A DNA stretch of 7,167 nucleotides from Betaproteobacteria bacterium (GTDB taxonomy: Bacteria > Pseudomonadota > Gammaproteobacteria > Burkholderiales > SG8-39), in assembly GCA_029865405.1 (NCBI GenBank), contig JAOUGZ010000130.1, positions 1 through 7,167 of the forward strand, in the 5' to 3' direction. Position numbers and translations under genes: made by a program. The notes below the pieces were generated by a model. It saw nothing but the letters and a program-made list of their open reading frames with translations. It was not told where the DNA came from and ran no database searches. Positions 1,571-7,066 of the stretch are shown piece after piece (the first letter of the stretch is position 1; each line of letters begins with the position of its first letter).

Positions 1571-4500
1571 ATGCCGAGCGTGAGGCAGGAAGCCCCCCCG
1601 GCCGACGCGATCGTCATTCGCGGCGCGCGCCAGAACAATCTCAAGAACCTGACGCTCACGCTGCCGGCGAACGAGCTGATCGTCGTCACCGGCGTCTCCG
1701 GCTCGGGCAAGTCCTCGCTCGTCTTCGACACCCTGTACGCCGAAGGCCAGCGGCGCTACGTCGAGACCTTCAGCCCCTACGCGCGCCAGTTCCTCGAGCG
1801 CATGGACAAGCCGCAGGTCGACGCCGTCGAGGGTATCCCGCCGGCGATCGCCATCGACCAGACTAACCCGGTGCGCACCTCGCGCTCCACGGTCGGCACC
1901 ATGACCGAGCTGAACGATCACCTGAAGCTGCTTTACGCGCGCGCCGCGCAGCTGCACTGCCGCGGCTGCGGCCAGCCGGTGCGCCGCGACACGCCGCAGT
2001 CGATCTACGCGGCGCTGCCGCAGGAAAAGGTGACAGTCACCTTTCCGGTGCCGGTGCCGAAGAACTTCACCGAAAAGGAGATCGAAGAGCTCCTGCAGCG
2101 CCAGGGGTACACCAAGCTGCGCTCGCGCTCGAAGACGCTGATCGAGGTAGTTCTGGACACCGTGACGCCCGGCAAGACCGAGAAGTCCAGGGTGATGGAT
2201 GCGATTGAGTCAGCCCTCCGTTTCGGGCAGGGAAAGCTAGTTGCCTACGTTGAAGGTCAGGTCGGTTTGGCAGTTCCTATATCTCCCGACTTGGCCGGAA
2301 GAATCACCCGGCCAAGTCGGGAGACCCTGGGAAATGCAGCGGAGGCGATGCGGTTTTCGACCTCCCTGCATTGCCCGGACTGCGATCTCACCTATTCCGA
2401 CCCCACGCCAGCGCAGTTCTCCTTCAACTCCCCCCTGGGCGCCTGCGACACCTGCCGCGGCTTCGGCCGCGTGATCGGCGTCGACTACGGCCTGGTAATT
2501 CCCGACGAGTCGAAGGCGCTGCGCGAAGGCGCCATTCGTCCCTGGCAGACGCCGAGCTTCAAGGAATGCCAGGACGATCTGGCGAAGTACGCGAAGAAGC
2601 GCGGCGTGTCCCTCGACGTGCCGTGGCGCGAGATGAAGGACGCCGAGCGCCGCTGGGTGATCGACGGCGAAGACGGCTGGGTGAGCTGGAAGAAGTCCTG
2701 GCCGGGCAAGTGGTACGGCGTGGCGCGCTTCTTCAAGTGGCTCGAGTCCAAGGCCTACAAGATGCACATCCGCGTGCTGCTCTCGAAGTATCGCGCGTAC
2801 ACGGAGTGCACGGCCTGCCACGGCACGCGCCTGAAGCCCGACGCGACGCTGTGGCGGCTCGCCGGCAAATCCATCCACGAGCTGATGCTGATGCCGGTGT
2901 CCGACGTGCAGCACCTGTTCGCCGGCCTGGAGCTGCCCAAGCCGCTCGACGAAGCGACCGAGCTGTTGCTCGGCGAGATCCGCACGCGCCTCGCCTACCT
3001 CGGCGAGGTGGGACTGGGCTACCTGACGCTCGACCGGCAGTCGCGCACGCTTTCGGGCGGCGAGGTGCAGCGCATCAACCTGACCACGGCGCTCGGCACC
3101 TCGCTGGTGAACACGCTCTTCGTGCTCGACGAGCCCTCCATCGGCCTGCACCCGCGCGACATGGGGCGCGTGATCGACGTGATGCGGAAACTGCGCGACG
3201 CGGGCAACTCGCTCGTCGTCGTCGAGCACGACCCGCAGATCATGTTCGCTGCCGATCGCATCCTCGACATGGGTCCGGGGCCGGGCGAGCGCGGCGGCGA
3301 GATCGTGTTCTTCGGCGACCCGGGCGCGCTGCGCAAGAAGGACACGCTCACCGGACAGTACCTTTCGGGGCGCAAGCGTGCCGAGGCGCCGCGCGCACCG
3401 CAGGCGCCGCAGAAGTTCCTGCGCCTTTCGGGCGCGGCCGAACACAACCTGAAGGACCTCGACGTCGACTTTCCGCTCGAGCGCCTGGTGTGCGTGACCG
3501 GCGTCTCGGGCTCGGGCAAGTCGACGCTGGTGCAGGATGTGCTCTACGCGGCGCTGCGCAAGGCGAAGGGCAAGCCGACCGAGACGCCCGGACGGCACCG
3601 CGCGCTCGAGGGCGCCGAGAAGATCGGCGAGGTGGTGATGGTCGACCAGTCGCCGATCGGCAAGACCACGCGCTCCAACCCGGCGAGCTACGTCGGCGCC
3701 TTCGACGCCATCCGCGATCTCTATGCGAAGGCCCCGGAATCTAAAGAGCGCAAGTACACCGCGGGCACCTTCAGCTTCAATTCGGGCAACGGCCGCTGCC
3801 CCGCCTGCGGCGGCAACGGCTTCGAGCACGTCGAGATGCAGTTCCTGTCGGACGTCTACCTGCGCTGCCCGGACTGCAACGGCAAGCGCTACCGCCCCGA
3901 AGTGCTGGAGGTGCGCCTGCGCGGCAAGAGCATCGCCGACGCGCTCGAGATGACGGTGTCGGAGGCGGTCGCCTTCTTCAAGGACGTTCCGGCAGTGGTG
4001 TCGACGCTGCAGCCGCTCGCCGACGTGGGGCTCGACTACCTGCGCCTCGGCCAGCCGGTGCCGACGCTCTCGGGCGGCGAGGCGCAGCGCCTGAAGCTCG
4101 CCGGCCACCTGGCCACCGATCCCTCGCCGACGGCCGCCAAGCTCCTCCTGTTCGACGAGCCCACCACCGGCCTGCATTTCGAGGACATCGCGAAGCTCCT
4201 CGGCGCGTTCCGCAAGCTCCTCGCCTCCGGGCACTCGCTCGTCGTCATCGAGCACAACCTCGACGTGATCCGCGCCGCCGACTGGATCATCGACCTCGGC
4301 CCCGAAGGCGGCGCCGCGGGCGGCGCGCTGGTGTGCGCCGGCGCTCCGGCGGAGGTAATGCGGCATGCGACCTCGCACACCGCAAAGGCATTGCGGGACT
4401 ACGAAACGTACGCAAAGGGGACAGACACCATTGCCCGAAGCAACCGGGCAATGGTGTCTGTCCCCACCATCCGCGTGCACAACGCGCGCGAGCACAATCT

Positions 4501-7066
4501 GAAGTCGATCGACGTCGACATCCCGCGCCAGCGCTTCACGGTGATCACCGGCGTCTCGGGCTCGGGCAAGTCGACGCTCGCCTTCGATATCCTGTTCGCC
4601 GAAGGCCAGCGCCGCTACCTCGAGTCGCTGAATGCCTACGCGCGCCAGTTCGTGCAGACGGCCGCGCGCCCCGACGTCGACGCCATCTACGGCATCCCGC
4701 CCACCGTCGCCATCGAGCAGCGCACCAGCCGCGGCGGCAGGAAAAGCACGGTGGGCACGCTCACCGAGATCCACCATTTCCTGAGGCTGCTGTTCGTCAA
4801 GCTCGGCACGCAGCACTGCCCGGACTGCGACGTGCCGATCGAGCCGCAAAGCGAGGAGGCGATCGCCGCGCGGCTGCTGCGCGAGTACAAGGGGCGGAAG
4901 ATCTCGCTGCTTGCCCCGCTCATCGTCAACCGCAAGGGGGTGTATACGGACCTTGCGAAGTGGGCGCGCGGCAAAGGCTACGGCCACCTGCGCGTGGACG
5001 GCAAGCTCCTCCCGGTGCAGCCTTTCCCGCGCATCGAGCGCTTCAAGGAGCACAACATCGAGTTGCCGGTGGGCAGCGTCGACGTCTCGCCGAAGAGCGA
5101 GCGCGAGCTGCGCGAGCGGCTGTCGATCGCGCTCGAGCACGGCAAGGGCAACGTGCAGGTGCTCGCCGGCCGCAAGCTCGCCGGCTACTCGACCAAGCGC
5201 GCCTGCCCGTCGTGCGGGCGCAGCTTCCAGGAGCCCGACCCGCGCCTGTTCTCCTACAACTCGCGCCACGGCTGGTGCCCGGGCTGCGTCGGCACGGGCC
5301 TGCAGCTGAAAGACGTGGGCTGGGACGCGGAGCGCTCGCGCACCGGGCAGGAAGACCACGTGCTCGACAGCTGGCTCGAGTGGCTCGAGGTGGACGAGGC
5401 CTGCCCCGCCTGCGAGGGCAAGCGCCTCAACCCGGAAGCGCTGGCCGTGCGCTGGCGCGGCAAGAACATCGCCGACTACGGCACGCAGCCGGTGTCACAG
5501 CTCGCCGAGCTGTTCGCGCGCATCAAGCTCGAGGGCCGCAGCGCCGAGATCGCGCGCGACCTCGTCGCCGAGCTGCGCAGCCGCCTGGGCTTCCTGAAGG
5601 AAGTCGGCCTCGACTACCTCGCGCTCGATCGCGCCGCCCCCACGCTCTCGGGTGGCGAGGCGCAGAGGATCCGCCTCGCCGCGCAGCTCGGCTCCAACCT
5701 GCGCGGCGTGTGCTACATCCTGGACGAGCCGACCATCGGCCTGCACCACCGCGACAACCGCATCCTCCTCGACGTGCTGGAGAAGCTGGAAGCCAAGGGC
5801 AACACCCTGATCGTGGTCGAGCACGACGAGGACACCATCCGCCGCGCGCACCATGTCATCGACCTCGGCCCCGGCGCCGGGAAGCTCGGCGGACGCGTCA
5901 TCGCCGAAGGCACCGCCGAGGAACTGATGCAAGCGCCCGAATCCGTCACCGGGCGCTTTCTCGCCTACCCCTTGCGCCATCCGCTGCAGCCGCGCCGCCG
6001 CGTGGCGAAGGACGCACCGGCGATCGAGATCGGCGGGGCGACCCTGCACAACCTGAAGACGATCGACGTGCGCGTGCCGCTAGCGCGCCTGAGCGCCATC
6101 ACCGGCGTCTCCGGCTCGGGCAAATCCACGCTCGCGCGCGACGTGCTGCACGACAGCCTTAAAGCCGGCGGCCCGGTGGGCTGCACGACGCTGAAAGGAC
6201 GCAAGCTCATCGAGCGCGTGCTCGAAGTCGACCAGGCGCCGATCGGCAAGACTCCGCGCTCCTGCCCCGCCACCTACGTCGGCTTCTGGGACGCGATCCG
6301 GCGCCTCTTTGCCGACACGAGCGAAGCGCGCATCCGCGGCTGGGGCCCGAGCCGCTTCTCGTTCAACACCAAGGGCGGGCGCTGCGAGACCTGCGAAGGC
6401 CAGGGCCTGAAGAGAATCGAGATGAGCTTCCTGCCCGACGTGAAGGTGGCCTGCGAGGCCTGCAACGGCCTGCGCTTCAACGGCGAGACGCTCGGCGCGC
6501 ACCTGCGCGGCAAGTCGGTCGGCGACGTGCTGGCGATGAGCGTCGACGAGGCGGTCGAGTTCTTCGCCGCGCACCCGTCGATCCACCACGCGCTGCGGCT
6601 GCTGCAGGACGTGGGCCTCGGCTACCTGACGCTCGGACAGCAGAGCCCGACGCTCTCCGGCGGCGAAGCGCAAAGAATCAAGCTCGTTACGGAGCTCGCC
6701 AAGGTTAGGGAGCTTGGAGGTTCTACACATCCCCCGATTTCCGCCTCTTCTTTTGGAAGTCGGGGGACAGCTTTGACAGGCCCCAAGACACTGTACGTCC
6801 TCGACGAACCCACCGTAGGCCTGCACATGGCCGACGTCGAAAAGCTGATCCGCGTCCTGCACCGCCTGGTCGACGCCGGCAACACGGTGGTCGTGGTCGA
6901 GCACAATCTTGACGTCATCGCGGAAGCGGACTGGTTGATAGACCTCGGCCCCGAAGGCGGCGATGCGGGCGGCAAGGCCGTGTACCAGGGCCCGCCCGAG
7001 CGCGCGGCGCGCGGCCATACGGCGCAGGCGCTGAACGCGTTTCTCGCGGAGCGCAAAGCCGCGTGA
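1571..7066 (+). CDS. uvrA: Tandem (dimeric, double-length) UvrA excinuclease subunit
   Basis: UvrA is the damage-sensing ATPase of nucleotide excision repair that loads UvrB on DNA. Normal UvrA is about 940-950 residues and works as a dimer; this 1831-residue protein holds two copies in one chain. Half 1 (1 to about 945): Walker A 41-49 and 644-652, signatures LSGGEVQ 494-500 and LSGGEAQ 833-839, Walker B Asp-Glu 520-521 and 862-863, switch His553 and His895, zinc finger C743/C746/C766/C769. Half 2 (about 966-1831): Walker A 994-1002 and 1512-1520, signatures 1359-1365 and 1695-1701, Walker B 1385-1386 and 1745-1746, His1418 and His1778, zinc finger C1605/C1608/C1628/C1631. Further CxxC pairs begin at 130, 268, 292, 413, 1083, 1212, 1236 and 1278. 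Half 2 lacks most of the insertion domain. Three palindromes are read through in frame. The ATG at 1571 is the first in frame after a TAA at 1514; no clear Shine-Dalgarno. Family certain; whether it replaces a normal UvrA is unknown. Confidence 0.97.
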   Translation: MPSVRQEAPPADAIVIRGARQNNLKNLTLTLPANELIVVTGVSGSGKSSLVFDTLYAEGQRRYVETFSPYARQFLERMDKPQVDAVEGIPPAIAIDQTNPVRTSRSTVGTMTELNDHLKLLYARAAQLHCRGCGQPVRRDTPQSIYAALPQEKVTVTFPVPVPKNFTEKEIEELLQRQGYTKLRSRSKTLIEVVLDTVTPGKTEKSRVMDAIESALRFGQGKLVAYVEGQVGLAVPISPDLAGRITRPSRETLGNAAEAMRFSTSLHCPDCDLTYSDPTPAQFSFNSPLGACDTCRGFGRVIGVDYGLVIPDESKALREGAIRPWQTPSFKECQDDLAKYAKKRGVSLDVPWREMKDAERRWVIDGEDGWVSWKKSWPGKWYGVARFFKWLESKAYKMHIRVLLSKYRAYTECTACHGTRLKPDATLWRLAGKSIHELMLMPVSDVQHLFAGLELPKPLDEATELLLGEIRTRLAYLGEVGLGYLTLDRQSRTLSGGEVQRINLTTALGTSLVNTLFVLDEPSIGLHPRDMGRVIDVMRKLRDAGNSLVVVEHDPQIMFAADRILDMGPGPGERGGEIVFFGDPGALRKKDTLTGQYLSGRKRAEAPRAPQAPQKFLRLSGAAEHNLKDLDVDFPLERLVCVTGVSGSGKSTLVQDVLYAALRKAKGKPTETPGRHRALEGAEKIGEVVMVDQSPIGKTTRSNPASYVGAFDAIRDLYAKAPESKERKYTAGTFSFNSGNGRCPACGGNGFEHVEMQFLSDVYLRCPDCNGKRYRPEVLEVRLRGKSIADALEMTVSEAVAFFKDVPAVVSTLQPLADVGLDYLRLGQPVPTLSGGEAQRLKLAGHLATDPSPTAAKLLLFDEPTTGLHFEDIAKLLGAFRKLLASGHSLVVIEHNLDVIRAADWIIDLGPEGGAAGGALVCAGAPAEVMRHATSHTAKALRDYETYAKGTDTIARSNRAMVSVPTIRVHNAREHNLKSIDVDIPRQRFTVITGVSGSGKSTLAFDILFAEGQRRYLESLNAYARQFVQTAARPDVDAIYGIPPTVAIEQRTSRGGRKSTVGTLTEIHHFLRLLFVKLGTQHCPDCDVPIEPQSEEAIAARLLREYKGRKISLLAPLIVNRKGVYTDLAKWARGKGYGHLRVDGKLLPVQPFPRIERFKEHNIELPVGSVDVSPKSERELRERLSIALEHGKGNVQVLAGRKLAGYSTKRACPSCGRSFQEPDPRLFSYNSRHGWCPGCVGTGLQLKDVGWDAERSRTGQEDHVLDSWLEWLEVDEACPACEGKRLNPEALAVRWRGKNIADYGTQPVSQLAELFARIKLEGRSAEIARDLVAELRSRLGFLKEVGLDYLALDRAAPTLSGGEAQRIRLAAQLGSNLRGVCYILDEPTIGLHHRDNRILLDVLEKLEAKGNTLIVVEHDEDTIRRAHHVIDLGPGAGKLGGRVIAEGTAEELMQAPESVTGRFLAYPLRHPLQPRRRVAKDAPAIEIGGATLHNLKTIDVRVPLARLSAITGVSGSGKSTLARDVLHDSLKAGGPVGCTTLKGRKLIERVLEVDQAPIGKTPRSCPATYVGFWDAIRRLFADTSEARIRGWGPSRFSFNTKGGRCETCEGQGLKRIEMSFLPDVKVACEACNGLRFNGETLGAHLRGKSVGDVLAMSVDEAVEFFAAHPSIHHALRLLQDVGLGYLTLGQQSPTLSGGEAQRIKLVTELAKVRELGGSTHPPISASSFGSRGTALTGPKTLYVLDEPTVGLHMADVEKLIRVLHRLVDAGNTVVVVEHNLDVIAEADWLIDLGPEGGDAGGKAVYQGPPERAARGHTAQALNAFLAERKAA
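2282..2324. repeat. Palindromic element 1, in frame inside uvrA
   Basis: TCTCCCGACTTGGCCGG (2282-2298) and its exact reverse complement (2308-2324) flank a 9-base loop. The element covers codons 238-252, between the UvrB-binding region and the C268/C271 pair of half 1. There half 1 is about 28 residues longer than the matching part of half 2. Perfect 17-base arms are far beyond chance in coding sequence. The tail from 2267 resembles the tail left of element 3. Confidence 0.9.
4417..4465. repeat. Palindromic element 2 at the junction of the two UvrA halves
   Basis: Two perfectly complementary 21-base arms (4417-4437, beginning GGGGACAGACACC, and 4445-4465, ending GGTGTCTGTCCCC) flank the 7-base loop AAGCAAC. 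Codons 949-965 encode most of the linker between the end of the first UvrA unit and the first strand of the second (about residue 966). From memory, GGGGACAGAC-type hairpins are common dispersed repeats in proteobacterial genomes; I could not verify this here. Its arms differ from those of elements 1 and 3. Confidence 0.93.
6730..6767. repeat. Palindromic element 3, in frame inside the fourth ATPase of UvrA
   Basis: TCCCCCGATTTCC (6730-6742) pairs with GGAAGTCGGGGGA (6755-6767) at 12 of 13 positions, the exception being a G:T pair; the loop is 12 bases. It covers codons 1720-1733, between signature LSGGEAQ (1695-1701) and Walker B (1741-1746). The segment is about 22-25 residues longer here than in the other three cassettes of the same protein. 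The arms and the tail from 6714 resemble element 1. Confidence 0.85.

Follow-up and report, generated by a model that had tools for sequence, protein, structure and literature searches.

Palindromic Elements in the Loops of a Double-UvrA Gene and an Apparently New Family of Dispersed Hairpins

A gene for a double UvrA protein, carried by a stretch of DNA of 7,167 nucleotides (hereafter the window, meaning that whole stretch), contains three palindromes in-frame, and these are probably mobile elements kept neutrally in protein loops that are permissive to them. The elements belong to families with copies dispersed in related genomes, they occupy loops in which other uvrA genes carry palindromes as well, and at the site of element 3 facing residues change together. 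The finding is real and the preliminary description of the window was right in its main point; the kind of insertion is known, the family of elements 1 and 3 is apparently new, and the pattern is now sharper. The gene offers a countable record of palindromes lodged in a DNA-repair gene with the frame intact, in which apparently unrelated families recur at the same loops. It makes testable whether REP sequences are present in uvrA and other repair genes by tolerance or by targeting, and how palindromes stay paired as their sequence changes. In addition, the family of elements 1 and 3 represents an abundant repeat without a known mobilizer.

The Host Gene and Its Three Hairpins

The open reading frame at 1571..7066 (forward strand) encodes a double UvrA (excinuclease ABC subunit A) of 1831 amino acids, identified by the NCBIfam model NF001503 (2033 bits) and by solved UvrA relatives. 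The frame runs without interruption and the three hairpins lie in it in-frame, in loops, as had been described. Element 1 (2265..2349, forward strand, residues about 233-260) has its left arm at 2282..2298 and its right arm at 2308..2324, both found by an inverted-repeat search, and all 17 of 17 base pairs are formed. Element 2 (4417..4465, forward strand), recognized by the same kind of search and by a pattern occurring in relatives, is a palindrome of the GGGGACAGA type, similar to the terminal repeats of RAYT-like transposons; it lies in the linker joining the two UvrA halves, and its arms (4417-4437 and 4445-4465) pair at 21/21 positions. Element 3 (6712..6792, forward strand) is located between the ABC signature and the Walker B motif of the last ATPase domain, at a gap in the alignment with a solved UvrA. 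Its arms, read from the sequence at 6730..6742 and 6755..6767 (forward strand), form a stem of 13 bp including one T.G mismatch.

Elements 1 and 3 have similar left tails, TTGGCAGTTC at 2267-2276 and TTGGAGGTTC at 6714-6723, and they are read in different codon phases, the first arm base being codon position 1 in element 1 and position 3 in element 3; both features, noted in the preliminary description, are present. Sixty codon-shuffled copies of the gene served as a chance control; their best stem score had a maximum of 13 and a mean of 9.2, as compared to 17 for element 1 and 21 for element 2. Element 3 is absent from the stems scoring 10 or more, so that its stem by itself is within chance. 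Its assignment is weak and draws on the tails, on a covariance model (R1, described below; E 0.0012), and on counterparts in two related genomes (G046 and G049).

Variable inserts occur at the same three sites in most of the 42 nearest homologs, and the remaining homologs are often shorter there, among the 60 of 120 homologs listed. In the alignments with homologs and solved UvrA proteins, the motifs around the insert sites are intact and the sites themselves are unconserved loops. The genome-wide tests reported below were run in relatives, namely 98 genomes of one family, where the uvrA pieces of G049 and G046 are the closest (84-87%). Upstream of uvrA, the window has two genes on the reverse strand, 936-1394 and 3-914, the first similar to a small c-type cytochrome and the second to an SppA-like protein, both below the NCBIfam cut-offs.

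The TTTG-TCTC Family

Elements 1 and 3 had been proposed to form one family, and copies found outside uvrA bear this out. The family, here called TTTG-TCTC, is laid out as TTTGNCNTTC..GRTCTC, a hypervariable paired stem, and then GAGA..GAA..CAAA, and the mirrored tail is seen in many copies. The outer sequence of intergenic copies in one genome (G012) is the same as that of element 1. The end pattern TTTGNCNTTCN{3,4}GRTCTC gives 46 matches in 19/98 genomes and 0 in the control; 30 of these matches were read as loci and 16 were not, and six further copies came from other loci. With no hairpin filter applied, a GAGA-closed stem follows 30 of the 35 distinct ends, and the cells of these unfiltered stems comprise 446 Watson-Crick, 14 G.U, and 16 other combinations. 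An argument for a palindrome maintained at the DNA level from missing G.U pairs was therefore rejected, as G.U is not rare in unfiltered stems.

Twenty-seven dispersed copies with clear stems were aligned. Five loci were excluded as probable chance matches, four with no hairpin (L341, L345, L350, L353) and one with only a distant weak hairpin (L354); L337, which does have a hairpin, was left out by the position filter. Three loci lie in open reading frames and have short stems (L351, L352, L362), and the last two of them were kept. In the alignment, 97.3% of 408 cells are paired as compared to 69.7% after shuffling, and 109 double changes are found as compared to 35.6; the high pairing and the scarcity of one-sided changes arise partly by construction, because only copies with Watson-Crick stems were selected.

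The covariance model R1 was built from this alignment, and none of the 27 training loci holds uvrA sequence. In the window, R1 finds element 1 at 42.1 bits (E 8.8e-10; 39.7 bits on the other strand) and element 3 weakly, at 17.7 bits (E 0.0012); the counterparts of element 3 in L092 and L101 (G046 and G049) score 25.3-27.9 bits. In 1.58 Mb of control DNA there are 15 R1 sites, 13 of them in G012 and some of these being training copies. The search for further copies over whole genomes, suggested in the preliminary description and run here on relatives, yielded R1 matches at E 1e-4 in 28 of the 98 genomes. The family is abundant in 13 of the 98, with 30-45 matches each; since 45 candidates were scored per genome and a palindrome matches on both strands, these values should be read neither as complete counts nor as numbers of sites. 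Other matches include a copy in G092 and one in G049 inside a gene for uracil-DNA glycosylase (L245:2195-2875), where the hairpin lies ahead of the catalytic domain. Another copy in G049 (L357:1499-1584) has a partial tmRNA match (RF00023, below the gathering score) at a distance of about 1.4 kb.

Stems are open in all six frames in 16 of 27 and in 25 of 55 cases, above the level of shuffled palindromes; once the tails are included, every one of the 27 family copies has at least one closed frame, and the mean is 3.67 open frames. Exact search for the hairpin TCTCCCGACTT..AAGTCGGGAGA gave no match in 399 genomes of the order, a set that does not include G012; the stems are hypervariable. A looser pattern, CCCGNCTT, was discarded as mostly chance: it occurs in 43/98 genomes with similar counts in the control, G012 having 8 versus 1. 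Rfam gave no match in the window, and the 10 matches obtained with E up to 1 at eight loci with family copies all fell short of the gathering score.

A RAYT gene flanked by the hairpin of elements 1 and 3 had been anticipated; of 34 Y1 transposase loci 33 were scanned, none of these carries the TTTG-TCTC family, and no transposase for elements 1 and 3 was found there. In G012, where the family is plentiful, PF01797 gave no match, the genomes being drafts.

Element 2 and Y1 Transposase Loci

Element 2 belongs elsewhere. Its resemblance to R1 is a match in the stem only (11.6 bits), and a single family for all three elements was rejected on this ground. In its arm, GGGGACAG at 4417-4424 fits the motif GGGGWSAS. 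The pattern GGGGACAGAN{4,34}TCTGTCCCC finds 59 sites in 17 of the 98 related genomes and none in the control. When the 34 Y1 loci were read by eye, 18 had the Y1 match flanked by inverted arms of the wider class of element 2, and 15 of these 18 have a GGG(A/T)CAG core, also read by eye; for Y1 loci cut by contig ends, the position of Y1 was assumed. In one genome (G097), the uvrA hairpin has 24 nucleotides in common with the arms at one Y1 locus. Palindromes of the element 2 type are thus present in relatives around Y1 (RAYT-like) genes, inside uvrA, and as dispersed solo copies.

According to a crude gene finder, 26 of the 59 GGGGACAGA sites lie in open reading frames, several of which are N-terminal extensions or doubtful frames; eight of the 59 are in uvrA, in seven of the 17 genomes, where fewer than 0.1 would be expected. 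Short peptides resembling GDRP or GDSP at the element 1 site of some homologs (P0006, P0007, P0014-P0017) might be what is left of one arm of a GGGGACAGA element read in another phase.

The link to REP sequences and RAYT transposases that had been drawn for the inserts as a group is supported for element 2 in relatives, through the Y1-flanking arms there, and is not supported for elements 1 and 3 at the 33 loci. The idea of one undescribed protein-invading family survives for elements 1 and 3, no description of their family having been found, and does not extend to element 2. Since the latter is of another family, the case is less that of one protein-invading family than that of a protein whose loops accept several.

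Relation to Known Systems

The inserts had been likened to the in-gene palindromes of Rickettsia and to REP sequences, and regarded as possibly an undescribed family. Di Nocera et al. (2013; PMC3733652) already reported REPs from several repair genes, among them uvrA of Thioalkalivibrio and O. terrae and uvrB of R. conorii, and described TIRYT transposases with TIR repeats (TIRtrons), some of which have the GGGGWSAS motif. With REPs in uvrA and Y1 transposons both in print, the kind is known. Element 2 resembles the TIRtrons in its fit to GGGGWSAS and in the arms around Y1 genes and solo palindromes of relatives, whereas elements 1 and 3 differ from them in being without this motif and in the absence of their family from the 33 Y1 loci.

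The GTAG- and CGTC-tagged REPs are short dispersed palindromes, mostly extragenic and in some cases inside uvrA, and for the CGTC repeats no dedicated transposase is known, as stated in the relevant passages of PMC3733652. The TTTG-TCTC family is similar in being short, dispersed, and sometimes present in uvrA, and it likewise lacks a known transposase; on the other hand, neither a GTAG nor a CGTC terminal tetranucleotide is found in the consensus of the 27 family copies, the hypervariable stems are longer, and there are tails on both sides. The palindromic elements of Rickettsia (RPE), described through PMC3733652 as in-frame palindromes within protein genes, share this property with the inserts of the window, the likeness being one of description only.

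Elements 1 and 3 are similar in hairpin build to REPINs, although no Y1 gene with their ends occurs at the 33 loci. REPINs, which go together with RAYTs, consist of two inverted ends forming one hairpin and are non-autonomous.

A literature search brought up no further report of uvrA hairpins and none of the TTTG-TCTC family, which is weak evidence, as long result lists were seen in part and most subscription journals lay outside the search; a motif search in paper texts gave nothing to the point among the matches listed. What is apparently new is the family of elements 1 and 3 and the recurrence of hairpins at the same uvrA loops.

Facing Residues at the Element 3 Site

Four facing codon pairs at the element 3 site were compared in 37 of 43 sequences, six being unparsed; one sequence (P0032) is probably mis-registered. 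At the third pair, complementary codons are possible in 34/37 sequences as compared to 22.1 after shuffling, a value reached in none of 5000 shuffles with kinship ignored, and the residue combinations include S-R, T-S, I-N, and F-K. When distinct sequences are counted, the figures are 12/15 versus 6.7 (3/5000). A second codon pair shows a weaker effect (35/37 versus 29.8; 2/5000), and the remaining two pairs show no covariation in the 37 sequences. The window itself, with I-S, is one of three exceptions at the third pair. The joint change of facing residues and the different phases of elements 1 and 3 agree with the proposal that DNA rather than peptide is kept in these two elements. The loop peptide ASSF is common to sequences with different arms, which, as judged from the protein sequences, favours change in place.

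Recurrence of Palindromes at uvrA Loops

The uvrA survey covered 122 other genes or fragments, fragments of one gene being counted separately, with a stem score of 14 or more; the window and eight duplicate loci were left out. It yielded 29 hairpins in 20 of the 122; of these hairpins, 19 are no more than 12 residues away from the window's three sites, which make up 6.3% of residues (P 1.8e-16, kinship ignored). Nine of the other ten fall in three further loops (residues 431, 605-617, and 847-858). Twenty of the surveyed pieces come mainly from family-rich genomes, and two were already known to carry a hairpin. The earlier uvrA set alone, with the window excluded, gave 19 hairpins scoring 14 or more in 105 genes, including L107, whose hairpin maps before the UvrA start and is not in the final survey, and L049, which looks like ordinary coding sequence.

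The uvrA gene of G013 carries three R1 copies at the three sites of the window, between residues 229/253, 950/961, and 1711/1742. At one loop, the palindromes appear by eye to come from different families (GGGGACAGA, GGGGTCAGA, GGGGCCAGGCTC, AGGGACAGTCC, R1, and others). In uvrA genes of other lineages, palindromes of the CCCTCTCCCCC, GGAGCGGCTTCAGCCGCG, CCCCCCTTTG, and TGAGCCTGTCGAA types were seen in similar loops (L006, L038, L003, and L070), those of L006 and L070 having a stem score of 13.

Overall, uvrA shows 29 hairpins in 660 kb. In 1.23 Mb of coding DNA outside uvrA, taken from seven related genomes, there are 8, a count that excludes matches within 60 bp of a gene end and in which three of the 8 were judged repeat-like. 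This excess in uvrA does not separate tolerance from targeting; sister genomes are non-independent and the sample comes partly from family-rich genomes.

Origin and Persistence of the Palindromes

In the reading held here to be probable, non-autonomous palindromic elements would have landed in, or been exchanged at, surface loops of the double UvrA whose length is not critical. Elements 1 and 3 would derive from the abundant TTTG-TCTC family with its conserved ends and hypervariable paired stem, and element 2 would be a solo terminal-repeat palindrome of the kind flanking RAYT-like (TIRYT) transposase genes. Movement would have been by transposition, for element 2 presumably through a Y1 transposase. 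The elements may persist because the loops are permissive and the stems are often stop-free in every frame, and the complementarity of their arms may be kept up either by recopying one arm from its partner or by exchange of the entire copy. No two strains differing in the presence of a single copy were seen, nor was a target-site signature, and this is counted against mobility. A bolder proposition can be put forward tentatively: the abundant palindrome family would keep its stems paired by DNA-level copying of arms during otherwise free drift, and uvrA would be a preferred landing place for palindromes, its three loops acting as a natural trap of repeated unrelated invasions.

It is unlikely that uvrA is actively targeted, or that the inserts are under selection, with hairpins that sit in DNA-repair genes altering repair activity or expression. 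Such an effect was speculated on in PMC3733652, which names uvrA, uvrB, recB, polA, and dnaE2 as REP-bearing genes and doubts that REPs are there fortuitously, while indicating linkers or loops as tolerant places. Of the 59 GGGGACAGA hairpins in 98 genomes, eight are in uvrA, although this gene makes up about 0.145% of a genome (5.5 kb, with genome size assumed to be 3.8 Mb; P 4e-14, kinship ignored), and the gene for uracil-DNA glycosylase contains a hairpin of the R1 family, which fits a preference for repair genes. However, the sites are unconserved loops between intact motifs, 102 of the 122 uvrA genes or fragments are without a hairpin of stem score 14 or more, and sulfite reductase-like and MFS genes carry such hairpins too. 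Moreover, the same class occurs in different phases across uvrA genes, so that no one peptide is kept.

A role of the hairpins as RNA, for example as mRNA structures that make ribosomes pause at the boundaries between domains of a very long protein, is quite improbable. Their positions between domains or between motifs and their strong stems would suit it, and G.U pairs are not avoided, being 14 beside 16 other non-Watson-Crick cells in unfiltered stems; however, the same families are mostly extragenic, often between convergent genes. The near absence of one-sided changes from the filtered alignment also speaks against an RNA role and counts little, as the copies were selected for Watson-Crick stems. 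That the resemblance of elements 1 and 3 is due to chance or codon bias, or that the inserts are assembly errors, is highly improbable: the stem of element 3 by itself is within chance, yet chance is already unlikely for element 1, R1 was trained on other loci and matches both elements, and inserts occur at these sites in a majority of the 42 nearest homologs, which come from several data sources.

Outside uvrA, palindromes of the GGGACAG/GGGGTCAG classes were observed in a gene with a nitrite/sulfite reductase domain (L320:10822-12558, G066) and in an MFS gene (L290:8254-9552, G001).
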